A stretch of 45,858 nucleotides of DNA from a virus. Made by a program: the position numbers and the translations under genes. Shown here piece after piece: positions 1 through 45,858 of this stretch (within the stretch, counting starts at the first letter, position 1; each line of letters begins with the position of its first letter). The DNA lies in the IMG/VR virus record IMGVR_UViG_3300033571_004214, positions 1-45,858 of that record. The stretch is one strand, 5' to 3'. The notes beneath the pieces are model-generated. The model made no database searches. It worked only from the letters and a program-made list of their open reading frames with translations, and was not told where the DNA came from.

Positions 1-87
1 AACTAAGATTACTCGATGACCCTCTGGCAGAGGGACTCCAGCAGTCCGTTGGCATTGATAACAGATCGTCAAAGAACTCGGCAGAGA
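1..87. repeat. Terminal direct repeat, left copy (circular overlap)
   Basis: These 87 bases recur exactly as 45772-45858 at the other end. A coding frame continues through the join, so this is the overlap of a circular assembly (unit about 45,771 bp) rather than a duplicated gene piece. A real short terminal repeat of the virion DNA is possible, but 87 bp inside a coding sequence fits an assembler overlap better. The physical ends of the packaged DNA cannot be deduced. Confidence 0.95.
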
Positions 88-845
88 GTTCTGTTGATGG
101 TGATAACGATGAGGAAAGTGGAATCCCTTCACATATTCAAAAGCGAATCGATAAGATCACCGCTAAGAGGCGCGAAGCCGAAGCCGAAGCCGAAAGACTC
201 CGTGCTGAATTAGAAGAGGCTAAAGCAAGACGAGATGAACCAGTAGTTCCTAGAAGTAAAAATGCATTCGCTAATATCCTTAACGAGGCAGATTTAAATA
301 AGGCTCTGGATCAAGCGAGAAAAGTTAGAGATTGGTGCGAGGAAAATCCATATGGTGGAGAAGTTCCAAAAGGAAACGGTGAAACGATTGTTGTGGACGA
401 ATCAGAAGTTCGCAAAATGAAAGTCAACGCTCTTAGGGACATTGAAACTAATATTCCAGCCCAGTTCCAACATATTACTGCTCGAAGACATTTCGATCCT
501 ATCGCGGAAAAAGAATATCCGTGGTGGCAGAAGCGCGATTCCAAGGAGTACAATACCGCCATTGCACTCCTTAAAAACTTCCCTGAGTTGGCTCAGTTCC
601 CTGACTATAAACTTGTAATCGGAGATTTCGTCTACGGTATGCAAAATAGGCAGATGCGCCAAGTTAAAGCATCGGTTAACACTACACAACGGAAACCTCA
701 ACTTCAGCCCACTCGCCCCTCAAATGCTCCGAACATTGCGTCAACTAACAGTTCAAACGCACAGGAATTTGAGAAAAGGTTTATTAAGAGTGGTTCCTCA
801 AACGATCTCGCATTCCTTATAGAGGCTAGGTTAAAGTCTCGTTAG
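1..845 (+). CDS. Putative scaffold protein, 3' part (gene crosses the circular join)
   Basis: This is the distal part of a gene whose start is at 45609. In the circle it encodes 335 residues; the codon for Gln55 is split across the join and the frame continues from base 3 to the TAG at 843-845. After an acidic, low-complexity N-terminus there is a coiled-coil-like stretch rich in Glu, Ala and Arg (roughly residues 100-130), then a mixed domain with several Trp (DWCEENPYGG, EYPWWQKR), a Pro/Asn/Gln-rich linker and a helical end (FEKRFIKSG). Position between portal and major capsid genes, acidity and coiled coil all fit a capsid scaffold, which is an inference from context. A head protease is less likely because I see no catalytic motif. 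Viewed linearly the gene looks truncated; it is not. Confidence 0.7.
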   Translation, partial: LRLLDDPLAEGLQQSVGIDNRSSKNSAESSVDGDNDEESGIPSHIQKRIDKITAKRREAEAEAERLRAELEEAKARRDEPVVPRSKNAFANILNEADLNKALDQARKVRDWCEENPYGGEVPKGNGETIVVDESEVRKMKVNALRDIETNIPAQFQHITARRHFDPIAEKEYPWWQKRDSKEYNTAIALLKNFPELAQFPDYKLVIGDFVYGMQNRQMRQVKASVNTTQRKPQLQPTRPSNAPNIASTNSSNAQEFEKRFIKSGSSNDLAFLIEARLKSR

Positions 846-853
846 TTCAAACC

Positions 854-864
854 GCCCTCAGGGC
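854..864 (+). other. Small hairpin in front of the major capsid gene
   Basis: GCCC-TCA-GGGC forms a perfect 4-bp stem with a 3-base loop in the 28 bases between the scaffold stop and the capsid start at 874. No T-run follows, so it is not a terminator. It could shape the capsid leader or mark an RNA processing point; that is speculative. Confidence 0.3.
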
Positions 865-873
865 ATTATCACT

Positions 874-2034
874 ATGGCAAGATTATTTGAAAGAGATCTT
901 GGAAACTATTCCAACGCAACAGAAGCAAACAGAGTCGGCAGACGCGAAGACATCGCGGATATGATCACTCTCGTAGAGGCTAAAGACACCCCATTCACCA
1001 CTATGGCGAGAAAAGGTGCTGAACCCTCCAATACATTGTTCCAATGGCAAGTGGACAAAAACCCCGACCCTCAAGTTCGTCCTGTAATTGACGGTACTGA
1101 CGAATCCACAACTAGTGACACCGCTGGTGGCGCTACTATGGATCAGTACACGATCGGTTACCGCGCTACACTTGCGGCTTACCCCCAAATCTTCAGACGC
1201 AAATTCCGTGTGTCCAAGTTGACCGAATCGAATATGGTTCGTATCGCTGGTACCCCATCGGAACGCTCTCGTCAGATGGCTAAGGCTATGCTCGCGATCA
1301 AACGCGATGTCGAAGTTGCACTTACCTCAAGCCAAACCGCTCAGGCAGACAACGGCTCCGTTGGCTACCGTACGCGCGCGCTTGATTCGTGGACTAAAAC
1401 TAAATGGGAAAAAGATTCGACCCTTCCTGTACCTGATCAATATTGCACCCCTGCTGAAAACATCATCGCGGCTTCTGCCACGAAGACGATCAGCGGTACT
1501 AGCCGTACTGTCGCTAACGCTAACACTTGCGCATCTGCATCCGCTCTTAACGAGTCGCACTGCCAAGATATGCTTACCGCGCTTTACAAGCAAATTGGTC
1601 AAAACAGAACTTGGGACGCTCTCGTTGCAGTAAATCTGAAACGCGCATTCTCTGGTTTAGTTTACACCACTCCTAACGGTGGCGCAGTATCTAACTCACC
1701 GATCCGCACTATGCGCGAAGGTGGCGATACTACTTATAGCCAATACATCGATGTATTCCAAGGCGATTTTGGTCAAATCAACCTTCACACCTCCAACTGG
1801 TTGGGTGATATTGATACCAATCCTGCTTCAGGAACCTACGGTGCATTCACACCTAACCTTAACAAAGGTTTTATTATTCCGTTTGAGCATACCGAAATCC
1901 GCTATGGCGGTAATATCGCAGAAGTAATCGAACTCACCGACAACGGTGGTGGTCCTGCTAATGCGATCGAGATGGTTCTTGGGCTTTGCGTCCATAATCC
2001 TCTTGCATTCGGTAAGTTCGACTTCAGCGCTTAA
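874..2034 (+). CDS. Major capsid protein
   Basis: 386 residues, HK97-like size, directly downstream of the scaffold-like gene. The N-terminal part (about 25-110) has the stretch DMITLVEAKDTPFTTMARKG, then a WQVDKNPDP segment and a YRATLAAYPQIFRRKFRVS segment. This looks to me like the DUF5309 / phage SU10-type major capsid family; that assignment is from memory of the family pattern. The C-terminal part is Gly/Asn-rich beta structure with GDFGQINLHTSNWLGD, which would fit the capsid E-loop/P-domain region. Codon use (ATC, CGC, ACC, CTT) is richer in GC than in the fibre genes downstream, as expected for a highly expressed gene. The stop overlaps the next start (TAATG at 2032-2036), so the two are probably translationally coupled. 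Confidence 0.8.
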   Translation: MARLFERDLGNYSNATEANRVGRREDIADMITLVEAKDTPFTTMARKGAEPSNTLFQWQVDKNPDPQVRPVIDGTDESTTSDTAGGATMDQYTIGYRATLAAYPQIFRRKFRVSKLTESNMVRIAGTPSERSRQMAKAMLAIKRDVEVALTSSQTAQADNGSVGYRTRALDSWTKTKWEKDSTLPVPDQYCTPAENIIAASATKTISGTSRTVANANTCASASALNESHCQDMLTALYKQIGQNRTWDALVAVNLKRAFSGLVYTTPNGGAVSNSPIRTMREGGDTTYSQYIDVFQGDFGQINLHTSNWLGDIDTNPASGTYGAFTPNLNKGFIIPFEHTEIRYGGNIAEVIELTDNGGGPANAIEMVLGLCVHNPLAFGKFDFSA

Positions 2035-2423
2035 TGTCTGACATCTCTCGCCAGTTAGCGGAGGCAGTACCTGAGAAACTCACACAAGAGTTTCATAGGG
2101 AACTCCGTACTGGTTGGGAGTTGCAGAAAGTTAAGGCAAAGCACGACCAAGCGTGGATGGGGAAACTCAATTCCGCTGGTGTGGACAAGAGCGTGGATGG
2201 TATCGGTCAATTAATTGGTCGTATCCATCCCGACTCTTATCACTTTTGGGGTATGAAACTTGGCTATGGTTGCTGGAAAGATCGAGGATTCGTAAGAGAA
2301 TACTTTAGAGATAATCCAGAGTGCGTAGTAAAAACGCAAGCCAAGTCTCAGATCCTCGTTGATACTAAAATCGTAGACACTAGCGGAAAACCGATCGCAG
2401 ATCTGTCCGCAAAGACTGAATGA
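2034..2423 (+). CDS. Conserved-looking head-region protein of unknown function
   Basis: 129 residues starting inside the capsid stop codon (TAATG). It begins with a helical segment (RQLAEAVPEKLTQEFHREL) and has a compact aromatic core (HPDSYHFWGMKLGYGCWKD) followed by a short beta-like tail. I do not recognise the family. Its place between the major capsid and an adaptor-like gene suggests a head completion, decoration or connector-associated role, but nothing in the sequence proves it. Confidence 0.6.
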   Translation: MSDISRQLAEAVPEKLTQEFHRELRTGWELQKVKAKHDQAWMGKLNSAGVDKSVDGIGQLIGRIHPDSYHFWGMKLGYGCWKDRGFVREYFRDNPECVVKTQAKSQILVDTKIVDTSGKPIADLSAKTE

Positions 2424-11404: not shown

Positions 11405-14400
11405 ATGCCTGAATTACCACCTAACGAGCGCCCAACATTAAGATCGGATCAGCCTGAAAATTACGATCCTAATCCACGCGGTCGTGCTATTAATGCACTT
11501 GGTAGTCCTTTAAAAGAAGTACCAAAAGAGGTACCTGAAACAGATGGATTACCTCCTTCATATGGATCAGAAGAAGAAGTAGCAAAGGCAAGGGCTAGTG
11601 CATTTGAAAAGGTAATGGGTCCTCTTCCAAATGCTGAAGGTGATCAGCCAACTAAAAATGATGTTCACATCAATAAAGTAGTTAGTGATATATACGATGA
11701 ACATTATAAAGCGATGAAAGATAGACCATACGATGCAAGCCAAGATACGCATCCTATGGCAATTGATACTACAGATAAAATTAAATTTGTAACGGCATTA
11801 TCCAAACTTTCTGGAAGAGAAATTTTAGACAATTATCCAGAGCCTATTGTAAAAGAATATTTAAGATGGATGAGGGACAATGAAGATCTTGGAAGAAAAA
11901 TATTAAAGGAAAACCATCCTGATGGACCTTCTTGGTACGAACAATTAGGTCACGGTGCTTGGGATATGGCTATGACTTTATCTGCTGGAGATATAGCAAA
12001 AGGTATTGTTCTTGTTGGATCAAAAGGAAAAGCATCACCAAGACTTGCTACTAGTTTAGAAGTACTTGATAAATATACATTAGGTATGTCTATTGGTCAG
12101 GCTAAAGGAGCAATTAAACATATTGGAAGTTTGAGTGAAATTCAGGCTAGAGAAGAAAAAGATAAAAAAGAAAATTTAAGAAACTTTGCTAAATTAGTAG
12201 CAAATAATAAAAAGCATCCAGAACTTCTTAGAGAAGATGTATTGCAAGAATTATACGACTGGTATGCTACAAAAGGTGTTAACCTGAGTCTTCAAAGTTT
12301 AAAAATTAATGATCCTGAAAAATATTCTTTAATTAAATCATTAAATATTGGTGAAAGATTTGAATTATCTTTAATGATTAATCACGAGGATCCTAGCGTT
12401 AAATCAAATTTAGTTGGATCTAAAAGACCAAGATTAAGATCTAGGAATATATCACTAGATGGATCTGAAGAATATAAAAGAAATCTTTCTTTTGCAGGAT
12501 CTATAGATCAAGAAAAAAAAGGACAAGGACAATTTTTAGATTTAATAAAAGATATCGATGTTGGTGAAAGCGGTAATGTTAAAATTGACGATTTTTATAT
12601 TAAAAATTTAGGTAAAAAAGGTATATTTGAAAATATGCCTAACTCTACTGGGGCTGAGGCACTTAAACATACTGCTGGTTTATTTTATTCGTTAACACCA
12701 ATTGCAAGGCGCGAAGCACAATTACAAGGTGGAGTTTCTTTATGGGGAGCATTTACAGGAAAATCAGATAGTCCGTTGCCTCCAATTAGAGAATCTTGGG
12801 CTGGTATTTTATTTCAACAAAGTGCTAAAAGTGATCAGGAATTATATAATAATTTTGCGGCTGGTGTAAAAACTCAGGAAGATCTTAATGCTAAAGCAGA
12901 AGGAAGAGACTCTTTAATTTTATCTAGAGTTATGGCTGGCATAACAGGTATGTCAAAAGATGAAGTAGATGAGAAATTATCATACTACGGAGCAAATAAT
13001 CAAGATCTTGCATCATCAGGCGCATTAAGATTTTCGTTGGCTGGAATGGCTGGACGAGCAGGTACTCTTACAAGGGCAGGTGTAATGGCTGGTGAAGGTA
13101 TTGCTGGTGGAACATACGCTACTGCAAAATACTTAGCATCAAAAGGGATACTTACGCTTTCACAAGCAAGCGCAGTAAGAAGCGGAGTAATGGCAAGTGT
13201 CGGTGCAGTACACGCGGTAGAGGCTTATACATTTGGTCTTCCAGTTAAACTTGTAGGGTATACAGTTGGAACTGGTGGAAGAATAATTTTAGCAGGCTAT
13301 GGATTAGCGGCACAAAAAGTTGCTGGATTAGCCGCTAAGAGCGCAAGCGCAATTGTTGGGCAAGAATTAAGCCCAAAATATTTTAGGCACACATTGATGA
13401 CACTTGGTGTAACCGATGCATTCTTTGGATTTAGCGGTGGTACAAAATTAGCCGCGATCCTTGGATTTGGAAAAGGCGCTGAAGCGTTTGGTAATATACT
13501 TTCAAAGTATGGCTATGCAGGTAAGGGAATCAACGGTTACGGATTTTCAGGAGCGATCGAACAAGCCGCTTTAGATAAAGAGATCGGATGGATGGCAGGC
13601 AGAATAGCATCTGTAGGCGCTAAATTAACTCCGCTTACTACGCTAGGACACGATGTCGTTAAAGGCGCGTGGCACGGAGCAGGTGTAGGATACGGATTAG
13701 GTTATATGCACAACGGTCACGATGGAGGTGTAGATGGAATTTGGGGTGGCGCTGGTATGGGTGGATTCGGTGGATTCCACGGATCAGCAGTAGCAATTAG
13801 ACAAGGTTATTATAGCCATAATGGAGCAACTGAGGCTCTAAGACAAATGGGTAAAAATGATCCTACAGGTGTTAATGCAAGGCACATAGAAGAGATCATT
13901 GCTAATGCTGAAGCAGATCAGGATTGGGTAAGAATACCAATGTTGGCTGGAGCGTTAAAGCAGGCTGGCAATAATAACATAACTACAATTTTACATAGAG
14001 ATGCTGACATTAGCCATATAAACGGAAGAAATGTAAATTTAAATGGTGTTCCAGATGCAGATTACAAGGTTGGAACTAAACAATTCAGAGTAAAAGAATT
14101 ACAAGCGGAAGTAGATCGTTTAAGAAAAGAATCTATTGATCATAGTAAAAATAATAGAGTAAAAGAGGCTGAAGCATCTGCTAAACTTGCTGGCGAAAAA
14201 AATGCTGAATTAAATAAAGAAATTAATGAATGGCTTACAGAAATAAGAACTAATGGAACTCAAGGACAAAGAGAAAGAGTAAATAGTAGGCAAAATGTGT
14301 ATAAAGGTGTGTGGATGGATGGTACAGTTGGTAATGGAACTATTTATATTAATTTAGATGAAACTGGATTAGTAGGATCTTCAGCAGATGGTATAGCAAG

Positions 14401-29573: not shown

Positions 29574-29594
29574 GCCAGAGTATCCAATATACTT

Positions 29595-32454: not shown

Positions 32455-32489
32455 CAAATACCCCAATTGCTAGTTTTTAAAAAAAGATG

Positions 32490-32517: not shown

Positions 32518-32538
32518 GGAGATCTTCCCATCACACCT

Positions 32539-32964: not shown

Positions 32965-32989
32965 TTTCCACCCAGCACCTACGCATATG
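32962..32989 (+). repeat. 28-bp stop-to-start leader repeat, copy A
   Basis: The bases from the TAA of one gene through the ATG of the next (TAATTTCCACCC...CATATG) are identical to 38317-38344. A shorter relative lies at 39231-39254, and 34587-34594 starts the same way. It contains no Shine-Dalgarno sequence. Confidence 0.85.
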
Positions 32990-33337: not shown

Positions 33338-33344
33338 TACACCT

Positions 33345-33713
33345 ATGGACAAACTAACACAACTCACACAACGCGCTCGCGCGCTCGCCAACATCCTCAG
33401 CGCTCCGATCGGATCCGCTGGCGATGATTACCTAACACCAGCCCAGCGATCCAAAGCCGAGGCTGAACTCACCGCGATCCACATCGAGATCGTGTCGATC
33501 GAAAATGAATTCGAGCCTGAGATCTATCTCAGCCCGACCGAGGTCGCTCAGTTCGTTTACGGTATGCACGGTGATCCGTCCTACGCGCAAGCGCAGGCGA
33601 TCGTCAAAGAGGTGAAGTCTAACCCTCACCTGTACCTGACCACTGGATCCGCTGGCGCTAACTTTGGTCGCATCCTTGCGATCGCAGGCGAAAGCCCTGA
33701 CATCGATGAATAA
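33345..33713 (+). CDS. Hypothetical early protein, helical
   Basis: 122 residues. It starts 8 bases after the previous stop with leader acacctATG. The first 60 residues are helical and Ala/Arg-rich (LTQRARALANILSAPIG; EAELTAIHIEIVSIENEF), followed by YLSPTEVAQFVYGMHGDP and a Gly/Ala-rich end. GATC is extremely frequent in this gene and the next (about 29 in 33345-34030 by hand). Function unknown. Confidence 0.6.
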   Translation: MDKLTQLTQRARALANILSAPIGSAGDDYLTPAQRSKAEAELTAIHIEIVSIENEFEPEIYLSPTEVAQFVYGMHGDPSYAQAQAIVKEVKSNPHLYLTTGSAGANFGRILAIAGESPDIDE

Positions 33714-34089
33714 CTGGTACGCACAGTCTCCAGAGGACACCGCGATCTGGGATCTACTCGCTAGATCTAGACGCAAGATCGAGGCGCTGGGTGGATCCCT
33801 AGCGCTTACGATCCCCGACTGGTACATCGGTGTTACCCAGCGCGCTGACGGTCCGATCTATCTCCTGATCAGCCCCGACAAGACGATCGTGGCGCGCGGA
33901 TCGGGCAAGACATTCCAAGACTCGTTCGGATCTCAGATCTGGATCGCGTTCGAGCGGATCACCAAGATCCGTCCAACCGTGCCTAGTAGCCTGATGCCTC
34001 AGATCGATGGGATCGATCTAGCCAAGGACCATTTAACCCCTCCAGTCTACGGTGTATTGCTCCGCGATATCACCCAGTGGATCGACTAA
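33706..34089 (+). CDS. Hypothetical early protein
   Basis: 127 residues from the ATG at 33706, which overlaps the previous stop (ATGAATAA). An in-frame ATG at 33664 exists but lies inside the previous gene. The protein is alpha/beta (SRRKIEALGGSLALTIPDWY; DGPIYLLISPDKTIVARGSG; GSQIWIAFERITKIRP). Every Gly-Ser and most X-Ile pairs I looked at are coded to contain GATC. Function unknown; early takeover or anti-host roles are possible. Confidence 0.6.
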   Translation: MNNWYAQSPEDTAIWDLLARSRRKIEALGGSLALTIPDWYIGVTQRADGPIYLLISPDKTIVARGSGKTFQDSFGSQIWIAFERITKIRPTVPSSLMPQIDGIDLAKDHLTPPVYGVLLRDITQWID

Positions 34090-34100
34090 TTTCTCAGTGC

Positions 34101-34129
34101 TTGACATTCACTGGAACATATGATCTACT
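34101..34129 (+). promoter_or_regulatory. Phage promoter 3 of the repeated early family
   Basis: TTGACA, a 17-base spacer (GGAACATATGA at its end), then TCTACT. Its position inside the upstream extension of the next reading frame fixes that gene's start at 34152. Confidence 0.75.
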
Positions 34130-34151
34130 GTCCTCCTTCCCTACTACAACA

Positions 34152-34589
34152 ATGATTAACACTACTGATATCACTATCAAACTCACCGATCGCCAATTCA
34201 GCCAATTGATCGATCTCTTCATCGACTCCGCGTTTGTATCGACCGCTAATTACACTAGCGTCCCGACTGGCGCTGACGGTAAGCGATCACTCTTGCTGAT
34301 CCCATCCTACGCGCGGATCTGGGCGCTCTACGATTCCGCGTTCAAAGGTTCGCTCCGTCAGAACCTCACGGTCAAGAATTTACTCGCGTGGGAATCCGAG
34401 ATCCAAGAGATCCTCTCCGCGACCGTTGCCGATCTTGCTAAGCGCATCACCGATCAGAATGAAAATTCTTTCGAGGGTCGCTACAGTACTCAGGAGATCA
34501 TCAAGATCATCGGTCAGCGCAATCGCAATGTCGCGCTTGTGATCGACATCCTCCAGTCCCATAACATCGCGATCCCTGATGTCCGCTAA
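34152..34589 (+). CDS. Hypothetical early protein
   Basis: 145 residues. An upstream in-frame ATG (34077) would put the promoter inside the gene, so 34152 is preferred. It is mostly helical (DRQFSQLIDLFIDSAFVST; LLAWESEIQEILSATVADLA; YSTQEIIKIIGQRNRNVALV). No family recognised. The leader is pyrimidine- and A-rich (ctactacaacaATG) with no Shine-Dalgarno. Confidence 0.6.
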   Translation: MINTTDITIKLTDRQFSQLIDLFIDSAFVSTANYTSVPTGADGKRSLLLIPSYARIWALYDSAFKGSLRQNLTVKNLLAWESEIQEILSATVADLAKRITDQNENSFEGRYSTQEIIKIIGQRNRNVALVIDILQSHNIAIPDVR

Positions 34590-34619
34590 TTTCCCTAAAC
34601 CCAATACACATACACTACT

Positions 34620-35498
34620 ATGAAAACCATCCAGTTAGATAAAAAGTTACTCCCTGCGATCAAGTCGATCGCTCAAGGATCCAGCGGTCCTGATCTTAAG
34701 ATCGCTGAGGATCAGATCATCCAGTCCGTACTCGATCACGCTAAGCAGATCGGCATCGCTGACGCGATCGTGTTTACACGATCCTTTGCGGTCCTCTATG
34801 TTGAGCCTCAGTCGCGTTTAAAGATCACGATCGATCCAGAAAAGATTCCCCAGTACATCGAGTTCCTCAAGATCAACACCGAGATCTTTAGACTCGCTGA
34901 CGATCGTGCCGAGATCCTTGAGAACTACTGGCGCTCACCTGAGCGGATCAAGAACGAACACTTCTGGTTACGCGCCTCACGGATCGCGACTCTCAATCGC
35001 TGGGCTAGTTACAGACCATTAGATTGGAAGCACCCTGAATCAGTTTCATCCGAGGGCAAAGTTTACACCGATGAGGACATTCGCAATTACCAAGCGCAAA
35101 TTAAAACCGATCAAGTTTTATTCGATGCGAATGCCAACCGATTCAATGCCTACTTAGAAACTGGCAGATCCGCGGATAGCAGAGATCGTAACCTCGCGGT
35201 TAAGACTATAATCGAGAAGATCATCGAGGCTATTAATGAAGTCCTTGAAGGCATCGATCGCAGACTTGAATGGACCAAGGAGTACCGCGCTCAACTCACC
35301 CCTGAGTACATCGCGCAATACATTCATACTAAGAAAACTAACGCGTTGCAAAGCGCGCAAGTGCAGGCGCTCGTTAAAGAGATCGGCTACCCGATCGCGC
35401 GCGATTCCAATAGCCTAGCGCTGGATCAGATCCCCCACGACCTGAAGGTTCAGATCCTGAATCTGATCATCGCCAACAAGCAGGAGGCTAAGATCTAA
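34620..35498 (+). CDS. Hypothetical early protein, 292 residues
   Basis: One of the largest unrecognised early proteins. It is helical throughout, with a first domain (KLLPAIKSIAQGSSGPDLKI; FTRSFAVLYVEPQSRLKITI), a Trp-containing middle (LENYWRSPERIKNEHFWLRA) and a long charged C-terminal helix (IIEKIIEAINEVLEGIDRRL). It starts 30 bases after a stop whose leader begins TAATTTCC, like the repeat at 32962. Its stop overlaps the next start (TAATG). Function unknown. Confidence 0.6.
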   Translation: MKTIQLDKKLLPAIKSIAQGSSGPDLKIAEDQIIQSVLDHAKQIGIADAIVFTRSFAVLYVEPQSRLKITIDPEKIPQYIEFLKINTEIFRLADDRAEILENYWRSPERIKNEHFWLRASRIATLNRWASYRPLDWKHPESVSSEGKVYTDEDIRNYQAQIKTDQVLFDANANRFNAYLETGRSADSRDRNLAVKTIIEKIIEAINEVLEGIDRRLEWTKEYRAQLTPEYIAQYIHTKKTNALQSAQVQALVKEIGYPIARDSNSLALDQIPHDLKVQILNLIIANKQEAKI

Positions 35499-35635
35499 TG
35501 GAGATCTTATTCCTCCTCGCGCTTTGGATCTTTGTTGAAGTCATTCCTATCACACTAAAATTAATCTATAAGATTGCGATCGTAACCGCACTCGCTTGGA
35601 TCCTCGCTAAATTCTACACCCACGAAAATGAGTAA
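35498..35635 (+). CDS. 45-residue membrane protein
   Basis: A short gene squeezed between two others by overlaps (TAATG at its start, ATGAGTAA at its end). It is almost entirely hydrophobic (FLLALWIFVEVIPITLKLIY, then IAIVTALAWILAKFY) with an acidic tail THENE, so one long or two short membrane helices. Double translational coupling supports it being real. Small early membrane peptides in phages often inhibit host envelope functions or superinfection; no specific role can be assigned. Confidence 0.6.
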   Translation: MEILFLLALWIFVEVIPITLKLIYKIAIVTALAWILAKFYTHENE

Positions 35636-36608
35636 CACACCCATCAACATCCACGATCTCGTTAAGTTGAATCTCACCGCGTTCCGCGCGTTGAGCGATG
35701 AGATCCTCACTGAAGCGGTTCCCTTGCTCCGCGCTGAAGCCAAGCGCCTGCACCAAGTAGCCGAGTCTACGCAGACTACCGCCAAGTATATTTGGGACGA
35801 TCAGCGCGCCAAGGCATATGCCGAATACAACCTCTACGCGGATCGTACGGAGATCGCTGAGCGCATACCCAAGAAGCGTAAGGCTGAGCGCGAGAAGCAA
35901 GCGCGCAAGGCTTTGCGTGAAGGCAAGAAAGTCGCGACCGAGGAGAAAGAGATCCTGATCGCGCCCTCGATCGAGATCATTTACACCGTGCTTGAGGTTG
36001 CTCGCGATCGGATCGCTGAGCGGATCCTAGATCGTTATCAGGCATCGTTCACCGATCTGCTCGATCGCTACAACAAAGTGCTTGCAGAAGGTCGCGTGGA
36101 TCGCGCCACTGGCGAACGCAAAGAAGCGACCCTGAGAAATTTCTACGATGCCTGCTCGTACATCGTAAAGGGATCACCAGTGTACGAACATTTCTTTGAG
36201 CCATCGCCTGAGTACCGATCGAGATCATCGCACGATCCGCTGATCGAATCTCCTGCACGATCCTTGTCCGCGATCACGATGGTGCTAAAGCCTTTGGCTA
36301 AGCGCGAGGCTGATCACTTTGTGAAGTCGTACTCGTACCGCGTGGTCGAGCGCACGATCGAGCGCCACTACGCATCGACCAAGCACACGACTTGCGAGAT
36401 CACAAAAGCGATCAGCAACAACAGGATCTGGGACGGTGCCACGATCGATGTCACCGTGATCTCCGAGGGATCCGAGTACACCTACAAGTTCGAGACTAAG
36501 TGCATCTTGAACTTCTCCAAGTTCGGCAGACCCTTCAACCAGTTCCCTACGCGTGAGATCCGATCCACTTGGGAGCCTGAGGATCAGGAGTCCAACTGGA
36601 AGGGCTAG
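35628..36608 (+). CDS. Hypothetical early protein, 326 residues
   Basis: A charged helical N-terminal half (AVPLLRAEAKRLHQVAESTQ; RKAEREKQARKALREGKKVA; VARDRIAERILDRYQASFTD) precedes a more globular C-terminal half (EADHFVKSYSYRVVERTIER; IDVTVISEGSEYTYKFETKC). The first half reads like a long coiled coil. A YTYKF segment resembles one in the protein at 32539. It is rich in GATC. Function unknown. Confidence 0.6.
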   Translation: MSNTPINIHDLVKLNLTAFRALSDEILTEAVPLLRAEAKRLHQVAESTQTTAKYIWDDQRAKAYAEYNLYADRTEIAERIPKKRKAEREKQARKALREGKKVATEEKEILIAPSIEIIYTVLEVARDRIAERILDRYQASFTDLLDRYNKVLAEGRVDRATGERKEATLRNFYDACSYIVKGSPVYEHFFEPSPEYRSRSSHDPLIESPARSLSAITMVLKPLAKREADHFVKSYSYRVVERTIERHYASTKHTTCEITKAISNNRIWDGATIDVTVISEGSEYTYKFETKCILNFSKFGRPFNQFPTREIRSTWEPEDQESNWKG

Positions 36609-36687
36609 GATCCGATCCTAGGCGGTTTGCTAGCCTAGTCCTTAATCGGGCTGGGCTAGCCTGTTTTAGGGGGTCTAAATCCAGCGC
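36609..36687 (+). other. Short intergenic region with a weak hairpin
   Basis: CTAGGC (36618-36623) and GCCTAG (36633-36638) can pair as a 6-bp stem with a 9-base loop; GGGCTAGCCTGTTTT follows at 36653-36667. It may be a weak terminator ahead of promoter 36688, but the T-run is not directly after the stem. Confidence 0.3.
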
Positions 36688-36716
36688 TTGACATCCAGTG
36701 GAAGATCTGATCTAGT
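36688..36716 (+). promoter_or_regulatory. Phage promoter 4 of the repeated early family
   Basis: GCGCTTGACA, a 17-base spacer (GTGGAAGATCTGA at its end), then TCTAGT, 15 bases ahead of the ATG at 36732. The spacer carries AGATCTGATCT, matching the copy at 38890. Confidence 0.75.
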
Positions 36717-36731
36717 CCTGATCCTACACCT

Positions 36732-37853
36732 ATGAGCAACATCCATAAGCCCTCCCAGTTCATCCCTGAAGACTACACCGTGATCGATTACATCGATGCG
36801 AACGAGCCTGCGAATATTTCCAGCGCGTTCAAGTATCTCTCCGATCAAGGTCACGATGGCGCGCGCCTTCAAGTCCAGTCCGAGATCACCGCGTTCTACG
36901 ATCTCTGCGAAAAGTATTTCGGTGTGCGATCCGCGCCTTGCGTATGCGATCACTGCGGAAAGTACGCGCGCTACTTTGCGGTCGCGTTCCATAAGCCAAC
37001 CAACAAGCACATCGCGGTCGGTCACATTTGCGCGGACAATCGCTTGGGCATTAGCACGGATCAGTTCCGCTGGAATCGCCTCGCTGAGCGCGCCAAGGCT
37101 ACTGCAACCGAGATCGCGCGATCCACTGCGCTGATCGAACTCGAAACTAAGGATCCTGAGTTACACCGCGCGTGGTTACAAGCACACGCTGATGATAAGG
37201 ATCGTGCAGGCGCGATCGCTCGCGAATCTGCGATCCTGAATGTCGTTGACGATCGCGATGTTAAATCGATCAGCGATATCTTCAACCGTGGGATCTATTT
37301 CCTTTCATCCGTTGCCGATCGCGTTCGCAAAGAAAATTTCCGCGCCAGCGAAAAGCAACGCGCAGTCCTGATCAGCGGACTCGCCAAGTCGCGTGAGTTC
37401 GCGATCCAAGCGCTTAGCCGTAACACTGGCTACCGCGCACACGCGATCGCCAAGGCTGAGTTAGGCGCTAACGCTCCAGTCCTGAGCGGTCGGATCCTGA
37501 TCCGCGGAAAGATCGCGTCCTTCAAGTACATCGAGTCCGAGGAATGGGGATCCACGCTGAAGTTCACGATCCACCTGCCCAGCGGTCAAACCGTGTTCGC
37601 TTCAGTGCCTAGCCTGCTCTTGGTATGGACAGGCACCAGCGCTGACCGTGAAGCCCCTTGGCGCGCCACTGTAGGCGATACCGTAGAGTTCACCGCCACG
37701 GTCGAGCAGTCGAACCGCGATCCCCTCTTCTACTTTGGATCTAGACCTACCGTTACCAAAGCCTACAAGGCTTGGCTTAACACGATCCCCGACACCTCCG
37801 AGGCTGAGGCGATCAAGATCGGTGTAAAGCCCTACGAGGTGCCTAGCGCTTAG
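36732..37853 (+). CDS. Zinc-finger plus OB-fold-like protein, possibly single-strand DNA or RNA binding
   Basis: 373 residues. Residues about 68-105 hold a probable zinc site (APCVCDHCGKYAR, then AVGHICADNRLG, with C, C, C and H-x-C). A charged helical middle follows (about 110-215). The C-terminal 125 residues have an OB-like beta barrel pattern (VLSGRILIRGKIASFKYIES; STLKFTIHLPSGQTVFASVP; GDTVEFTATVEQSNRDPLFY). Proteins of this plan occur in phages and plasmids of diverse bacteria without a settled function. Nucleic-acid binding is the best inference. It has its own promoter, so it is probably made early and in quantity. Confidence 0.6.
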   Translation: MSNIHKPSQFIPEDYTVIDYIDANEPANISSAFKYLSDQGHDGARLQVQSEITAFYDLCEKYFGVRSAPCVCDHCGKYARYFAVAFHKPTNKHIAVGHICADNRLGISTDQFRWNRLAERAKATATEIARSTALIELETKDPELHRAWLQAHADDKDRAGAIARESAILNVVDDRDVKSISDIFNRGIYFLSSVADRVRKENFRASEKQRAVLISGLAKSREFAIQALSRNTGYRAHAIAKAELGANAPVLSGRILIRGKIASFKYIESEEWGSTLKFTIHLPSGQTVFASVPSLLLVWTGTSADREAPWRATVGDTVEFTATVEQSNRDPLFYFGSRPTVTKAYKAWLNTIPDTSEAEAIKIGVKPYEVPSA

Positions 37854-37857
37854 GCGC

Positions 37858-37886
37858 TTGACATCCAGTCGAACATATGATCCACT
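37858..37886 (+). promoter_or_regulatory. Phage promoter 5 of the repeated early family
   Basis: GCGCTTGACA, a 17-base spacer ending GAACATATGA, then TCCACT, 13 bases before the ATG at 37900. It begins four bases after the previous stop, so the genes are packed around promoters. Confidence 0.75.
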
Positions 37887-37899
37887 GTCTCCCTTCCCT

Positions 37900-38319
37900 A
37901 TGAATACTACATCCATCATCCCTGCCCAGAAACAACAAGATCTCGCGCTCGCTAAGCGCGCGGTCCTCATCGCTCAGCGTGATCTCGCTCGCGTTGAACA
38001 CGATATTAAACACATCGAGTTGAACGCTGAAGTCGATCGCCTCAGCAAAGCGCACGATGCGATCCGCGCGACATATCTCGCGCAGTACGCTGAGTACGAT
38101 ATCGCTTTTAATTTAGCAACGAACCCATCCACGCGCACGGCTGAGAATAGCGCCAAGTACCAAGAATTATATAGCGCGCACAAAGAACTTGATGCCCAAG
38201 TCGCGATCGCGTGGAGCGCGTGGGAAACTGTAGCCAAGGCTCGCTCACGCTCTTGGACCACATATCGCAGATCGCAAGCGCAGTACCGCGCCAAGATCGA
38301 TGCGTTAGATCCTAAATAA
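37900..38319 (+). CDS. Coiled-coil hypothetical protein
   Basis: 139 residues starting at 37900, after the promoter; an in-frame ATG at 37858-side sequence overlaps the promoter and is rejected. The protein is almost wholly helical (QQDLALAKRAVLIAQRDLAR; DIKHIELNAEVDRLSKAHDA; AWETVAKARSRSWTTYRRSQ) with heptad-like spacing. Ala and Arg dominate, partly because GCG-ATC and CGC/GAT words are favoured in this DNA. Function unknown. Confidence 0.55.
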   Translation: MNTTSIIPAQKQQDLALAKRAVLIAQRDLARVEHDIKHIELNAEVDRLSKAHDAIRATYLAQYAEYDIAFNLATNPSTRTAENSAKYQELYSAHKELDAQVAIAWSAWETVAKARSRSWTTYRRSQAQYRAKIDALDPK

Positions 38320-38344
38320 TTTCCACCCAGCACCTACGCATATG
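38317..38344 (+). repeat. 28-bp stop-to-start leader repeat, copy B
   Basis: Identical to 32962-32989, spanning the TAA of the preceding gene and the ATG of the next. The flanking genes of the two copies are not alike, so the leader itself appears to be the conserved unit. Confidence 0.85.
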
Positions 38345-38557
38345 ACCCCAGAACAAATCCATAACGGTAACAAGAAGGATCTCGCCAAGGCTCGCAAAGT
38401 CTTGCGGATCCTTTCGCACAAGTACATCGATGGCGATCCACGCGTGACCGAATCAATGCTCGCCACGGCATCGATCGCGGTCGCGCACGGTGAGCGCGCT
38501 GAGAACGCGTCACGATCCGCGTTGCTCGCTTCACTTAACATCCTCAACATCAAATGA
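38342..38557 (+). CDS. Small hypothetical protein
   Basis: 71 residues, helical and basic at first (DLAKARKVLRILSHKYIDGD), then Ala/Ser-rich (ESMLATASIAVAHGERAENA). Start set by the leader repeat; ATGA overlap with the next gene. Unknown function. Confidence 0.5.
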   Translation: MTPEQIHNGNKKDLAKARKVLRILSHKYIDGDPRVTESMLATASIAVAHGERAENASRSALLASLNILNIK

Positions 38558-38820
38558 AAAAAGTCCTCCCAAGCGATTACCACGCTCACCTGATCACGAT
38601 CGCTGAGAACGACCTCAGGATCGCTCGCAAGGCGGTCCTAGAGTTCGTTGGCGCTCATCCTGAGTTGATCCCAGTCGATGAGGATCAGATCACCGATGAG
38701 GTCATCGATCCAGCCGATCAGGTCCACTTGGATCTGCTCCGATCCGAGGCTAACGATTGCCTTGAGATCCTCGAATGGCTCAGGCTCGTAGCGCCCAACG
38801 ATCAGTTCGAGATCCGATGA
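38554..38820 (+). CDS. Small acidic hypothetical protein
   Basis: 88 residues, acidic in the middle and end (VGAHPELIPVDEDQITDEVI; LLRSEANDCLEILEWLRLVA). Coupled upstream and downstream by ATGA. Small acidic early phage proteins are often inhibitors or DNA mimics, but nothing here proves it. Confidence 0.5.
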   Translation: MKKVLPSDYHAHLITIAENDLRIARKAVLEFVGAHPELIPVDEDQITDEVIDPADQVHLDLLRSEANDCLEILEWLRLVAPNDQFEIR

Positions 38821-38885
38821 CCCCTGAGGATATCACCGCGCTCGCGATCGCGATCCTGATCGCCCTGTTCCTGCCCTTTGACTAG
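38817..38885 (+). CDS. Possible 22-residue membrane peptide
   Basis: MTPEDITALAIAILIALFLP followed by two residues and a stop. It overlaps the previous stop (ATGA) and is one membrane helix. It ends immediately before the promoter at 38890, with no spare bases, which argues that the frame is used. Such short frames arise by chance, so the call is tentative. Confidence 0.35.
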   Translation: MTPEDITALAIAILIALFLPFD

Positions 38886-38889
38886 GCGC

Positions 38890-38918
38890 TTGACAGATCC
38901 TAGAAGATCTGATCTACT
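38890..38918 (+). promoter_or_regulatory. Phage promoter 6 of the repeated early family
   Basis: GCGCTTGACA, a 17-base spacer (TAGAAGATCTGA at its end), then TCTACT. The start codon at 38925 begins six bases after the -10 box, so the transcript may start at the ATG itself. Confidence 0.75.
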
Positions 38919-38924
38919 CCCAGT

Positions 38925-39233
38925 ATGACCACCAAGATCGACCTCCTAATCGCTGAGCGCACTCGCACTCGCGATCGTTTAATCTTCTGCTACCGCGCGC
39001 TTGAATCGTGCGATCGCTTACGCGTTAAGTATCGCGCGCTTAAGAAGTCCGCGATCGATGCAGAGCGCTGGAGCGCTGAGACTCGCTTAGAGTCGATCAC
39101 GATCCAAGTCGCGCAGTTCAAGGCTGAGATCGCCAAGATCAAAGCGTCCGTGCCTAACACCGACTTCTTCAAGGTCAACGCGCAGAGCGAGTACAAGTCA
39201 GTCGCTACAGGCGCTGAGTTCGCGCGGATCTAA
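38925..39233 (+). CDS. Hypothetical helical protein, probably from a leaderless mRNA
   Basis: 102 residues, helical and basic (LLIAERTRTRDRLIFCYRAL; IDAERWSAETRLESITIQVA; FKAEIAKIKASVPNTDFFKV). With a -10 box at 38913-38918, transcription would begin on or next to the ATG, leaving no room for a ribosome-binding site. Function unknown; similar in texture to the coiled-coil protein at 37900. Confidence 0.5.
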   Translation: MTTKIDLLIAERTRTRDRLIFCYRALESCDRLRVKYRALKKSAIDAERWSAETRLESITIQVAQFKAEIAKIKASVPNTDFFKVNAQSEYKSVATGAEFARI

Positions 39234-40833: not shown

Positions 40834-41022
40834 ATGAAAGAGGCTAGCAATAGCAACCGATCGGCAACAAGGCGCTACCAGAAGGCATCGTCCTATTACC
40901 AATCTGCCGTTAAGTTCCAACTTAGACGCAAAGGAACTACGCTAGCCTCATCTCCTCAATTGTCTAAGAATAAGGAATACCACAAGAATTATAGCAGGAA
41001 GGCTAGACGGAGTGGCGGTTAA
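40834..41022 (+). CDS. Small basic protein upstream of terminase
   Basis: 62 residues, strongly basic and Ser/Tyr-rich (SNSNRSATRRYQKASSYYQS; NKEYHKNYSRKARRSGG). It starts right after the previous stop and its own stop shares a base with the terminase ATG. It is probably nucleic-acid binding. It could take part in packaging, but is too short and disordered for a classical small terminase. Confidence 0.5.
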   Translation: MKEASNSNRSATRRYQKASSYYQSAVKFQLRRKGTTLASSPQLSKNKEYHKNYSRKARRSGG

Positions 41023-42629
41023 TGTCTAAAATTGTATTAACACCACACCCAGTCCTACACGCTCCAAACGAGGATCAGATCAAAGAACTCGTAAAGAAAT
41101 ACGGTCAGGACAAAACGCTTGAAATATTACAAATACGAGAAGATAAAATTGAGGCTGAGAAGCGCGATCCGTATAGACACGGATACGAACCTTGGTTTTG
41201 GAAAGACGCTGATAAGTTACTCAACGAAAATGACGAGTTGTTATTATCTGGCGGTAACAGAGCAGGCAAAACCGAATACGCGGCTAAACGCGTTGTTCAC
41301 ACGCTGATCAACAAACCGAATTCGCGCGTATGGTGCCTTCACACAACAAATCAATCAAGCATTCAAATGCAACAAAGCGTTGTGTGGAAGTATCTTCCAA
41401 GCGAATTAAAGCAGGCAAAAAAAACAAAGGTAACAAATATCTCCTATACGCAAAAGAATGGCTTTTCGGAAAACTCATTCGTTTTGCCGAATGGAAGCCA
41501 GTGTTTCTTTATGAACTACGCTCAGGAGCGCACGGTGATCGAGGGTGGAGAAACCGATATGATCTGGGCAGACGAGTTAGTGCCTCTCGATTGGGTCGAA
41601 ACGCTGAGGTTCCGAAACATAACAAGAAAAGGGAAAATGGTTGTAACCTTCACACCAGTAACTGGTTACACACCTGTTGTAAAAGACTATTTGGCTGGAT
41701 CAAGATTAATTGAAAGCAAACCTGCAAAATTATTACAAAACTCAAACACAGTAATCGGATGCAAACACGGAGAGATGCCTTACATAGCAAAATGTGTACG
41801 GAGGGGGGCATACGCGATGTGGTTTTTCTCCGAGTTCAACCCATACAATCCTTTCGACCACCTAGCAAAGAGTCTACAAGGGCGCTCAAGTTACGAAATA
41901 AAGATCAGAGCGTACGGATGGGCAGAATCTTTGGCTGGCAATCAGTTTCCACGGTTCGGGGATGCGAACATCATACCAGCCGACAAAATACCCACTGGTG
42001 GTACTAATTATCAAGGGATCGACCCTGCTGGCGCAAGAAACTGGTTTATGATCTGGATGCGCGTGGCTGAAGACGGTACAAAATTTATTTACAGAGAGTT
42101 CCCAGATGCCACGGTTGGCGAATGGGCGCTAGCATCCGATAAGGCTGACGGCAAGGTAGGTCCAGCCCAGACTACCAACGCTGGCAGAGGCATAGACGAG
42201 TACAAGGAACTCATTATGCATTTGGAAAATGGAGAGCCGATCGCAGAACGATACATCGATCCTCGCGCAGGCGCTCAGCAGGCTTACGGTCGTGACGGTG
42301 GAACATCGATCATAGATCTATTCCAGCAAGGAGAGAATCCTATGTTTCTTCAACAGGCGGCTGGTATATCAATTGAAGAAGGAATTGGAATGATAAACAA
42401 CTGGTTGTCGTATGATATGAGTATGCCCATTACTTCAACAAACCAACCCAAATTGTACATTTCTGAAAATTGCCAGAATTTGATCTTCTGTTTAAAAGAG
42501 TGGACTGGACAAGACGGACAAAAAGGTGCAAGTAAAGATCCTATCGACTGCTTAAGATACTTAGCGGTTATGAATCCAGAATTTGAAAACGACAAAACTT
42601 ATAAATCATCTTTACCATTTTCTTATTAA
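41022..42629 (+). CDS. terL: Large terminase subunit
   Basis: 535 residues. Walker A is SGGNRAGKTEY (G77 to T84), Walker B DMIWADELVP (D184, E185), and the coupling motif region TFTPVTGYTP follows at about 210-218. The nuclease domain begins at GIDPAG (D334) and includes YIDPRAG and DPIDCLRYLAVMNPEF near the C-terminus, the RNase H-like arrangement. It pumps DNA into the prohead through the portal and cuts it. Length and motif order are normal. It is preceded by tiny basic proteins, with no obvious standard small subunit next to it. Confidence 0.9.
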   Translation: MSKIVLTPHPVLHAPNEDQIKELVKKYGQDKTLEILQIREDKIEAEKRDPYRHGYEPWFWKDADKLLNENDELLLSGGNRAGKTEYAAKRVVHTLINKPNSRVWCLHTTNQSSIQMQQSVVWKYLPSELKQAKKTKVTNISYTQKNGFSENSFVLPNGSQCFFMNYAQERTVIEGGETDMIWADELVPLDWVETLRFRNITRKGKMVVTFTPVTGYTPVVKDYLAGSRLIESKPAKLLQNSNTVIGCKHGEMPYIAKCVRRGAYAMWFFSEFNPYNPFDHLAKSLQGRSSYEIKIRAYGWAESLAGNQFPRFGDANIIPADKIPTGGTNYQGIDPAGARNWFMIWMRVAEDGTKFIYREFPDATVGEWALASDKADGKVGPAQTTNAGRGIDEYKELIMHLENGEPIAERYIDPRAGAQQAYGRDGGTSIIDLFQQGENPMFLQQAAGISIEEGIGMINNWLSYDMSMPITSTNQPKLYISENCQNLIFCLKEWTGQDGQKGASKDPIDCLRYLAVMNPEFENDKTYKSSLPFSY

Positions 42630-42631: not shown

Positions 42632-42859
42632 ATGACCTACCCACCACTACTATCCAGAAAACTAGCGTCAGAAATGACAGGATTATCAGCGAGATACTTT
42701 GATCGTTTAAGAAAAGACGGTGTTCTTAACACTTATCAAACATTAGGCGGTCAACACAGATTTAGACGAGACGAAATTTTAAAACACATCAATGGCACAC
42801 ACACAACCTTGGAACCAACCGACAACGGACAAGTTAGCGGAAGCATCAAAAACTCCTAA
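42632..42859 (+). CDS. MerR / excisionase-like helix-turn-helix protein inside the packaging block
   Basis: 75 residues. LLSRKLASEMTGLSARYFDR, LRKDGVLNTYQTLGGQHRFR and RDEILKHING match the winged-helix DNA-binding domain of MerR and excisionases (helix-turn-helix, then a GGxxRF wing). It starts two bases after the terminase stop and its last 68 bases overlap the portal start. Position suggests a DNA-recognition part in packaging, perhaps replacing a small terminase, but a regulator is also possible. Confidence 0.6.
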   Translation: MTYPPLLSRKLASEMTGLSARYFDRLRKDGVLNTYQTLGGQHRFRRDEILKHINGTHTTLEPTDNGQVSGSIKNS

Positions 42860-45197
42860 TATCAAGGTACTCCTCAGGGAGTATAACGAATCGTTATACA
42901 ACGGATCGTCACTTGATAGATTAGCGGCATTAGACGATATTCGTTACTGCCGATGGGAAGGTCAGTCCGATGATGGTAAGAAGCATAGCGATATGCGCAG
43001 AGATGGTAACCCTGCTATGCCTTGGGAAGGCGCGTCAGATGTAAGAGTAAGATTAGTCGATCGCACAATCAATGATCTAACCGCGCTTATGATGACCGCG
43101 TTCCATAGATCTACGCTCAGAGTGAGCGGAGTAACTTTAGAAGACGGTGGAGCCGCGTCTGCATCTAGCACACTGATGCGATGGATCCTAGAAAATAGAC
43201 AGACTAGAGAAATGTCTAATGAGGCTCACCTAGCCGCGCAATACGCGTTAACATACGGATGGACAATTTTCCATATCACTTGGGATCAGGACTCAGCGAT
43301 CAGAAGACAAAAAATTACGATGGACGATCTTACTGCGATCCAAGAGCAATACAAAGAGCAAGCGCCCGATTCTTTATTGGCTAACATCGTTGAGATGATC
43401 CAGTCAGAATCTAACGATGATTACTTAGCCGCAAATTTATCTCAGTTCCTAAATGGTGTGCCTCCTCACAAGTGCAAAAAATTAATTAGCGATCTTAGAA
43501 AAAAAGGAGAAGCAGAGATTGAAGAACCTTATATTCATAAAAACCTTCCGTGCGTAACTGCATTAAAGCCTTATGATGAAGTTACATTCCCACACGAAAC
43601 TACTGATCTCCAGCGCGCGCGTGTGATCTTTAGAAGAACATTTTTAACTGAAGTAGAGTTAAGATCTATGGAAGTTAATGATGGTTGGGATCCAGAATTT
43701 ATTGAAGCCGCCGCCGCCCAACTTGGTAAGGCTTCTATGTATAACGATCCAGCAATGACTCCAGTTACAAATGTGCTAAGCACAAATGTTTGGCGCGGTA
43801 GGCATATGGTGGAGATCGTGTACGCGTACGCGCGCCAGATCGGTCCTGATGGCATTCCAGCAATTTACTACACCGTATTTAGTCCACAAGTAAGTTCCGA
43901 CATTTACGCTAAGCACGAAATTTTAGATTACTACCACGGTAAATATCCTTTTGTTGGATACGCTAGGGAAATTACCAGAAGACCACTTATGGAGTCGCGC
44001 GGTATTCCTGAGATCTCAAGAACGGATCAAGATGAGATTAAGGCTCAACACGATTCGCTAAGAGATAGAACTGCTATTGAAACTTTACCACCAATCAAGG
44101 TAGCAAAGAGAATCGGAGCATTAAACAGAATCGGTCCTGCGGTGCAACTCCCTGTAACTACAAAAGACGATTACACATTCTTGGAACCGCCTGCTGGCAA
44201 CCCACAGATTGCATTTTCTATGATTGAGCGCGTAGAGGCTCAACACGCTCAGTACTACGGATTAACATCCAAGTATGTTGAGGATGTAAGATCGCAACTT
44301 TTACAACAAAATTTAATTACTAATTGGCTCGGTGCGTGGACTGAGATTTATCAGCAAGTATTTACTCTTGCTTTACAATATCTCACCCCAGAAGAAAAAA
44401 TCAGAATCACTGGCATTGATCTTCCAGCGCGCGCTACAGACATCCACGGTGGATTTGATTTCATCGTTAAGTTTGATGTTAGAGAAGTAGACACTAATCT
44501 GGTTATGGAGAAATTAGATGCTATCAACAAGTTCGCAGTTCCTCTAGACACATCTGGTGTAATTGACAGAACTAAACTTGTTAAGGCAGTCGTTGAGGCT
44601 ATCTCTCCTGATTCCGCGCGCGAATTAATCGTGGCTAACGAACAAGCATCTCAAAAGATGTTTAGAGATGTACAAACCGATATTGGCTTAATGCTATTAG
44701 GTAACGCTCCACAATTAGTTGAGAACGATCCATCAGCGCAAAGCAAATTACAATTGGCGCAACAGATCTTACAACAAAATCCAAAGGCTCAGCAAGCGTT
44801 ACAAGGCGATCAGATCTTCCAAGAAATGTTCCAGCAATATGTGCAGAATCTACAGATGTCTGTTCAACAGGAACAAAATAAACAAGTTGGTAGAACTGGT
44901 GTCGCTCCACAGGGTCCGTCAATGGCAGATCAAGTTAAGAGTGTTATTGATCAAGCCAAAGAAGCAGGCAAAGCAAAAGCAAGCGGTCAATCCAGCGCGC
45001 GCGATGATATGTCAGCGCAGGTAATGCAAGGCAGACAACAACAACAAGAAGGCGCAATGCAAGCCGATGCACAAAATGCACAAATGCAACAAGCAGTTAT
45101 GCAGTTAATGGAACAAGGCGCTTCAGAAGAAGAAGCGATCGCCACGATCCAACAACAAATGGCTCAGGCTCAACAAGGTCAGCAACAACAAATGTAA
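42792..45197 (+). CDS. Portal protein
   Basis: 801 residues, of the large P22-like portal type. Typical features: an N-terminal MPWEGASDVRVRLVDR (portals of this group have W-E-G-A/S-D), NDLTALMMTAFHRSTLRVSG, middle ESRGIPEISRTDQDEIKAQH, FSMIERVEAQHAQYYGL, and a C-terminal helical barrel ending in a long Gln/Ala/Met-rich tail (QQAVMQLMEQGASEEEAIAT). The start at 42792 gives MAHTQPWNQ and overlaps the MerR-like gene. It forms the dodecameric channel for DNA entry and exit. The A/T-rich code and AGA Arg codons are like those of the other virion genes. Confidence 0.85.
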   Translation: MAHTQPWNQPTTDKLAEASKTPNIKVLLREYNESLYNGSSLDRLAALDDIRYCRWEGQSDDGKKHSDMRRDGNPAMPWEGASDVRVRLVDRTINDLTALMMTAFHRSTLRVSGVTLEDGGAASASSTLMRWILENRQTREMSNEAHLAAQYALTYGWTIFHITWDQDSAIRRQKITMDDLTAIQEQYKEQAPDSLLANIVEMIQSESNDDYLAANLSQFLNGVPPHKCKKLISDLRKKGEAEIEEPYIHKNLPCVTALKPYDEVTFPHETTDLQRARVIFRRTFLTEVELRSMEVNDGWDPEFIEAAAAQLGKASMYNDPAMTPVTNVLSTNVWRGRHMVEIVYAYARQIGPDGIPAIYYTVFSPQVSSDIYAKHEILDYYHGKYPFVGYAREITRRPLMESRGIPEISRTDQDEIKAQHDSLRDRTAIETLPPIKVAKRIGALNRIGPAVQLPVTTKDDYTFLEPPAGNPQIAFSMIERVEAQHAQYYGLTSKYVEDVRSQLLQQNLITNWLGAWTEIYQQVFTLALQYLTPEEKIRITGIDLPARATDIHGGFDFIVKFDVREVDTNLVMEKLDAINKFAVPLDTSGVIDRTKLVKAVVEAISPDSARELIVANEQASQKMFRDVQTDIGLMLLGNAPQLVENDPSAQSKLQLAQQILQQNPKAQQALQGDQIFQEMFQQYVQNLQMSVQQEQNKQVGRTGVAPQGPSMADQVKSVIDQAKEAGKAKASGQSSARDDMSAQVMQGRQQQQEGAMQADAQNAQMQQAVMQLMEQGASEEEAIATIQQQMAQAQQGQQQQM

Positions 45198-45200
45198 TTT

Positions 45201-45464
45201 ATGAGCGACTACCAAGAATTTAAAGCGACCGAAGAAACACTAAGAAAATTAGGATTCAAAGGAAACAACGAAGCATTTGAAGCCGTAATGGCGCTACTGG
45301 ACACATTCATTTCTATCGAAACTGTTTCAGCCATCGGCTCTGATTTAACTAGTGAAAAGCGTCACCACGCTTGCGGTCGCGCGGAAGGTCTTGTCGATTT
45401 CAAATCTTATTTGACAGATGCAAGAACAACCGCTCAGAGAAAGAACGCTCCTGATATTGTATGA
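45201..45464 (+). CDS. Small protein between portal and scaffold
   Basis: 87 residues, helical (FKATEETLRKLGFKGNNEAF; VMALLDTFISIETVSAIGSD; EKRHHACGRAEGLVDFKSYL). Small helical proteins with a His/Cys/Arg segment of this sort commonly follow the portal in podoviruses. Function unknown; possibly an assembly chaperone. Confidence 0.55.
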   Translation: MSDYQEFKATEETLRKLGFKGNNEAFEAVMALLDTFISIETVSAIGSDLTSEKRHHACGRAEGLVDFKSYLTDARTTAQRKNAPDIV

Positions 45465-45487
45465 TCTGGAGAAATAATTGCACAACA

Positions 45488-45515
45488 TTGCAGATCCTTA
45501 CAAATCGGATCTGAT
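45488..45515 (+). promoter_or_regulatory. Weak candidate promoter for scaffold and capsid genes
   Basis: TTGCAG, a 16-base spacer, then TCTGAT, in the 144-base gap 45465-45608. It resembles the early promoter family (TTGCAT at 32490, TCTGATC in the spacers). Besides this, the gap holds TTACAA twice (45498 and 45589 area) and an imperfect GGGGC/GCCTC stem near 45540. None is decisive. Confidence 0.35.
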
Positions 45516-45608
45516 CGTATTGACCTATAACAAATTTGGGGCTTTATCGCCTCTGGTTCTGGAATCCATAAAATCCTGTCTGACTACTTACAAGTCGTAA
45601 AACATAGT

Positions 45609-45858
45609 ATGACCAACCAAGAAAATAATGATAACGCTGAACAAGCGAATCCGCAAGTGGATACTAGTCCGCTTTCGTTAGATAGACTCGCGTCTATGAT
45701 CGAGACTTCCTCGCTTACTAGTGGGCAAGGAACGGATGCTACCGAATCCGATATGCAGTCGGCAGAAGACCAACTAAGATTACTCGATGACCCTCTGGCA
45801 GAGGGACTCCAGCAGTCCGTTGGCATTGATAACAGATCGTCAAAGAACTCGGCAGAGA
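45609..45858 (+). CDS. Putative scaffold protein, 5' part (continues at base 1)
   Basis: The ATG at 45609 starts MTNQENNDNAEQANPQVDTS, an acidic, Asn/Gln-rich, probably disordered N-terminus. The frame stays open through 45771 and continues from the circular join into the gene ending at 845, for a total of 335 residues. The last 87 bases here are the same as bases 1-87. The acidic disordered N-terminus and position after the portal support a scaffold. Confidence 0.7.
   Translation, partial: MTNQENNDNAEQANPQVDTSPLSLDRLASMIETSSLTSGQGTDATESDMQSAEDQLRLLDDPLAEGLQQSVGIDNRSSKNSAE
45772..45858. repeat. Terminal direct repeat, right copy (circular overlap)
   Basis: Identical to bases 1-87. See the left copy for the reasoning that the genome is circular in assembly, about 45,771 bp. 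Confidence 0.95.

Follow-up and report, generated by a model that had tools for sequence, protein, structure and literature searches.

We propose that the phage genome analysed here has very probably been cleared of type II restriction sites, over its whole length, by natural selection. The proposal starts from three observations: an exact absence of many short words, amino-acid changes that go with these absences, and a mosaic of losses among related phages. Throughout, the window is the entire stretch of DNA under study, 45,858 bases (positions 1-45858 of IMG/VR record IMGVR_UViG_3300033571_004214).

RESULTS

A complete genome of a probable podovirus

The first 87 bp of the window (1-87) are repeated exactly at its end (45772-45858). 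Such an overlap of a circular assembly indicates that the genome is circularly closed and complete at 45,771 bp. A major capsid protein of the SU10_MCP family (874-2034, + strand; Pfam E 4.9e-38), a large terminase (41022-42629, +), which served to find and order relatives, and a portal protein (42792-45197, +; PHROG 1216) are all encoded, as in phages of the SU10/phiEco32 type, and the phage is probably a podovirus, its morphology being judged from the capsid relatives. Recombination is represented by RusA, Rad52 and two PDDEXK-type nucleases (DUF3799 and PDDEXK_14), and there is a single tRNA gene, for tRNA-Arg. No NPPY- or PCQ-type methyltransferase motif was present in any open reading frame of at least 60 aa, and no methyltransferase Pfam match was obtained among the 20 window proteins scanned. 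The largest gene (11405-23695, +) specifies a giant protein of 4096 aa and contains none of the absent words. This protein carries a zinc-peptidase-like HELAH motif, with only a sub-threshold Pfam match, and its counterparts in relatives reach 5831 aa (G024). GC content is 35% in the giant gene and climbs to 55% at 36-39 kb; among relatives it ranges from 36 to 61%, despite terminases that are at least 60% identical.

At least thirteen words are missing

An earlier note, drawn from the sequence alone, described five palindromic tetramers as apparently absent altogether, and counting bears this out: ACGT, AGCT, CATG, CCGG and GGCC each occur exactly 0 times in 45,858 bases, against 84, 177, 107, 63 and 69 expected from a trinucleotide Markov model and 95-170 from base composition. 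The zeros persist across the circular junction. As a null we used plain synonymous codon shuffles within genes, which preserve both protein and codon usage, and which gave means of 61, 200, 71, 50 and 60 for the same tetramers. Five words were nevertheless too few. Also at zero are CCWGG (85 expected), GCWGC (60), ACGCC (36) and CGWCG (31); ACAGC (44), which with the equally absent GCAGC makes up RCAGC; CCCGC (13) and ACGGG (11), together CCCGY; and GDGCHC and CYCGRG. In total at least 13 words, amounting to some 10-13 independent ones, have been lost from positions 1-45858, and 13 of them stand at 0 against 15-200 in the shuffles, far below what composition and codon usage predict. The note had spoken of several restriction systems; the plural holds and the number was an underestimate.

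Other palindromes are common, as the note had also stated. TCGA, TGCA, GTAC and CTAG lie at 0.85-1.32 of the shuffle means, GATC, GCGC and CGCG exceed them, and TCGA, TGCA and TTAA, among others, occur at ordinary frequency. Most of the missing words correspond to palindromes that type II enzymes are known to recognise; for RCAGC, ACGCC, CCCGY and GDCGHC we know of no matching palindromic type II site.

Dipeptides are lost with the words

Some of these words cannot be avoided by silent change. Every spelling of Pro-Gly (CCN GGN) creates CCNGG, His-Val requires CATG or ACGT, Trp-Pro requires GGCC, and Gly-Pro requires GGNCC. A genome with zero CCNGG must by logic have zero Pro-Gly, and the window has none where 41 would be expected; Pro-Gly is also absent from its nine nearest long relatives (G001-G009). 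His-Val (0 against 13 expected) and Trp-Pro (0 against 7) are likewise missing from the window, and Gly-Pro is missing in phages that also lack GGNCC (G023, L064). Family-wide, with open reading frames taken from a simple caller, 9 forbidden pairs are present where 928 would be expected, whereas the same pairs in phages able to encode them number 1436 against 2353. The loss of Pro-Gly further means that about forty positions in the proteins had to differ, and no explanation limited to silent sites can produce that.

The capsid protein illustrates the point. Outside the window's clade the relevant site mostly reads KPGNT, and many of these relatives keep a single CCWGG exactly there. The window's clade has PSNT (EPSNT in the window, with Pro-Ser codons CCC TCC at 1024-1029, +), G007 and G023 have PNNT, and L074 has PANT. 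Replacement of the glycine by Ser, Asn (twice) or Ala is found only in phages with zero CCNGG, and phages that retain the capsid Pro-Gly still contain CCWGG or CCSGG. EcoRII is an enzyme that needs two sites, and a lone retained CCWGG would be tolerable to an enzyme of this kind. In the portal, G017, G020 and G021 have GPGI(H/Q)LPV, among the few retained Pro-Gly pairs, where the window reads GPAVQLPV (IGPAVQLPV, 44130-44156, +). When orthologs in G002 and G003 were compared at sites absent from the window, silent and amino-acid changes were mixed and inseparable from general divergence (51-54% identity).

The forbidden set turns over among relatives

Close relatives of the terminase are encoded on 176 IMG/VR stretches, of which 80 were fetched; words were deconvoluted on 28 longer contigs (the listed words overlap), and 28 words were tested against a terminase tree built from 58 sequences. 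The relatives display the same phenomenon with different words. Most of the 28 contigs have many zero words, among them, in various relatives, GATC, CGCG, GCGC, GTAC, GGWCC, CASTG and ACSGT, and the set forbidden to a single phage reaches about 14 of the 28 tested words. Each common word changes state 3-10 times on the tree, and TCGA, TGCA and TTAA are never lost. Among near relatives, GGCC, RCAGC, ACGCC and CCCGY are missing in the window alone; relatives with terminases 84-86% identical lack GGWCC, which the window keeps. G025 (L150, L151) has AATT, CTAG, ATAT and TATA all at 0, and also lacks AGCT, CGCG, GCGC, GATC and CCWGG. No restriction enzyme that recognises ATAT or TATA is known to us, and their absence may point to unknown specificities. 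CGACG is retained in L002-L005 and L018; a hairpin was rejected as its basis, the site lying in a coding stretch (LDDPLAEG) that has a silent variant in the window.

Almost no avoidance is seen in L027, L060, L063, L065 and L082. The only two C5-methyltransferases found in the family are encoded by the low avoider L065 (G022) and by the distant L084, which show little or no avoidance, and the hyper-avoiding relatives yielded none. These two cases hint that family members either methylate or avoid.

GATC is in excess, unevenly

The earlier note had also pointed to an excess of GATC. The excess is real (643 against 170 expected) but it is not spread evenly along the genome: the first 24 kb contain 22-27 copies in each 3 kb, the interval 33-39 kb contains 96-99 in each, and the surplus is concentrated at 27-39 kb, where there are up to 33 copies per kb and every reading frame is affected. 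Compared with the shuffles, GATC within genes stands at a ratio of 1.96. Isoleucine is ATC after a G-ending codon in 83% of cases and elsewhere in 25%, and Gly and Arg codons have A as their last base in 82% of cases when TC follows, against 28%, although the GC-richness of the GATC-dense region may account for part of this codon contrast. The excess is weaker in the window's clade and in G022, and there is hardly any in G012, G019, G027 and G028. A repair process of the very-short-patch kind was ruled out: GATA/TATC and GATT/AATC are both depleted, and A, T and C are all replaced at the third base before ATC. As several neighbours of GATC are depleted through different base changes, which misfits a C-to-T repair bias, we suspect selection for GATC, and the excess looks like its product. 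The GATC-dense early region (29543-38932, +) contains six similar promoter-like repeats of 45 nt, at 29543, 32487, 34099, 36686, 37856 and 38888 (+). Most have TTGACA and a TATGAT or TCTGAT -10 box, and GATC overlaps the -10 box in all six. They could be methylation-sensitive early promoters.

Leads to a host

The note had suggested that the signature could identify the host, a hope that was disappointed: searches by terminase, CRISPR spacer and tRNA-Arg gave no proven host, and neither these nor the sampled Verrucomicrobiota genomes contained a host with the window's exact specificities. A pattern-based terminase scan of 84,980 species returned seven contigs, from six Verrucomicrobiota MAGs and one Flavobacteriaceae MAG. 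In a profile search, 18 of 388 Verrucomicrobiota genomes had terminase matches, about a dozen of them substantial and one sitting in a 3.75-Mb contig. At 26-57% identity these relatives are distant, and among those measured the majority avoid one word at most. Two prophage-like loci in Opitutae MAGs, L083 and L087, each lack one palindrome (ACGT 0/44 and GTAC 0/11, respectively), so mild avoidance exists in distant relatives too. No CRISPR spacer across the 388 genomes matched the 19.9 kb of the window that were searched; the sole 40-bp match (L179) lies outside any repeat array and was rejected as a spacer. The best matches to the window's tRNA-Arg reach 78-84%, which does not decide on a host. 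C5-methyltransferases were found in 50 of 96 Verrucomicrobiota genomes, with at most 10 matches each, and the sampled genomes held restriction enzymes of the MvaI/BcnI type (5), HpaII type (4) and HaeIII type (1), none of which marks a proven host. Verrucomicrobiota are the best lead to a possible host. Verrucomicrobia of Lake Biwa have few methyltransferases (PMC6329791); bloom-forming cyanobacteria are rich in restriction systems (PMC8262939) and are possible hosts.

DISCUSSION

How could a genome arrive at so many exact zeros? The lineage would grow in a host population carrying many restriction-modification systems, whose restriction enzymes would be the selecting agent. Each leftover site would expose unmethylated incoming DNA to cutting, so that sites would be removed until none remained, mostly through silent changes. 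Where no silent option exists, as for Pro-Gly under loss of CCNGG, His-Val under loss of CATG and ACGT, and Trp-Pro under loss of GGCC, the protein itself would change. A phage in which no methyltransferase was detected would depend on the absence of sites. Any change in the host repertoire would alter the forbidden set, leaving sister phages without different words, and this turnover would drive the mosaic on the tree. Type II restriction, the cause favoured by the note, is supported because most of the words are known type II palindromes, because unavoidable sites altered amino acids and because sisters lose different words; restriction in the host population accounts at once for the exact zeros, the palindromic words, the altered amino acids and the turnover. 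Counting against it are that a host with these specificities was not found, that the numbers of C5-methyltransferases in Verrucomicrobiota are modest (and methyltransferases few in those of Lake Biwa) and that some zero words match no known palindromic type II site.

A variant of this explanation, which our confidence in it does not include, takes the forbidden set as a sum over strains or species, none of which holds all the systems. The long sets, the differences between close relatives and the small number of C5-methyltransferases in each sampled Verrucomicrobiota genome speak for this version; genome data, however, cannot tell it apart from a single restriction-rich host, and we consider it unlikely. 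Very unlikely is self-avoidance, in which the phage would have purged its own sites because its nucleases cut the DNA of hosts or rivals there: it does encode DUF3799, PDDEXK_14 and RusA, but three recombination-type nucleases cannot cover about 13 specificities, nor the differing sets of relatives. Less credible still is a mutational or repair bias, by which methylated cytosines deaminate or are converted and words decay without selection. All five tetramers contain C and G and decay of methylated words is known in some genomes, yet a bias would leave residues rather than exact zeros over 13 words; AGCC and GGCT, among the strongly enriched neighbours of AGCT in the window, are not products of C deamination, the glycines of Pro-Gly were replaced, and the words AATT, ATAT and TATA missing from G025 contain no C. 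A library artefact, in which a digest preceded sequencing and the assembly drew on intact molecules alone, would yield exact zeros but is scarcely conceivable: chance does not let a 46-kb genome of ordinary composition avoid 13 frequent cutters, the relatives come from dozens of separate metagenomes and show sets of their own, and the altered proteins already refute it.

What are the implications of selection by type II restriction? It can drive a viral genome beyond silent changes to altered proteins, so that identifiable dipeptides are lost and a capsid glycine is replaced independently in several lineages. We think it likely that restriction in this way edits viral proteomes, with PG, GP, HV and WP extinct in whole phage proteomes, and that the genomes can be read as records of host repertoires, possibly including undescribed specificities (RCAGC, ACGCC, CCCGY, ACSGT and GDCGHC). 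The differing word sets of relatives probably record the bacterial defences met by each lineage, and zero words in a metagenomic phage could read out the restriction specificities of its host. The family thus offers a natural experiment on the speed of phage adaptation to restriction, on the choice between methylation and avoidance and on the defences of uncultured bacteria.

Site avoidance is already known; its extent here, the turnover of the forbidden set and the loss of dipeptides appear to be unreported, as we found no account of dipeptide loss by restriction or of multi-word elimination in the searchable literature. The host of Helicobacter phage KHP30 is known for many restriction systems, and in this phage ACGT, GTAC, TCGA and GGWCC are near-eliminated, a likeness to the window, although fewer words are affected and no tested palindromic tetramer stands at zero. 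T7, like KHP30, shows a milder form of avoidance: it is low in GATC (6 observed, 155 expected) and CCWGG (2 and 70), but this concerns two words, neither at zero, and T7 has an anti-restriction protein (gene 0.3). Rusinov et al. (2018) found that avoidance is most marked among non-temperate phages and towards orthodox type II systems; elimination (ratio below 0.1) affected about 7.5% of the phage-site pairs they tested (PMC6286503). The window resembles their cases as a dsDNA phage that has lost orthodox type II sites; they counted pair by pair, whereas here at least 13 words are at zero at once, dipeptides are lost and sets turn over. C75C1 (OQ984151), the nearest named phage by terminase (31.5%), lacks fewer words and has an annotated DNA methyltransferase, but like the window it encodes giant proteins, and the 30 kb examined have words at zero (GATC 0/107, CASTG 0/41 and CGWCG 0/26).
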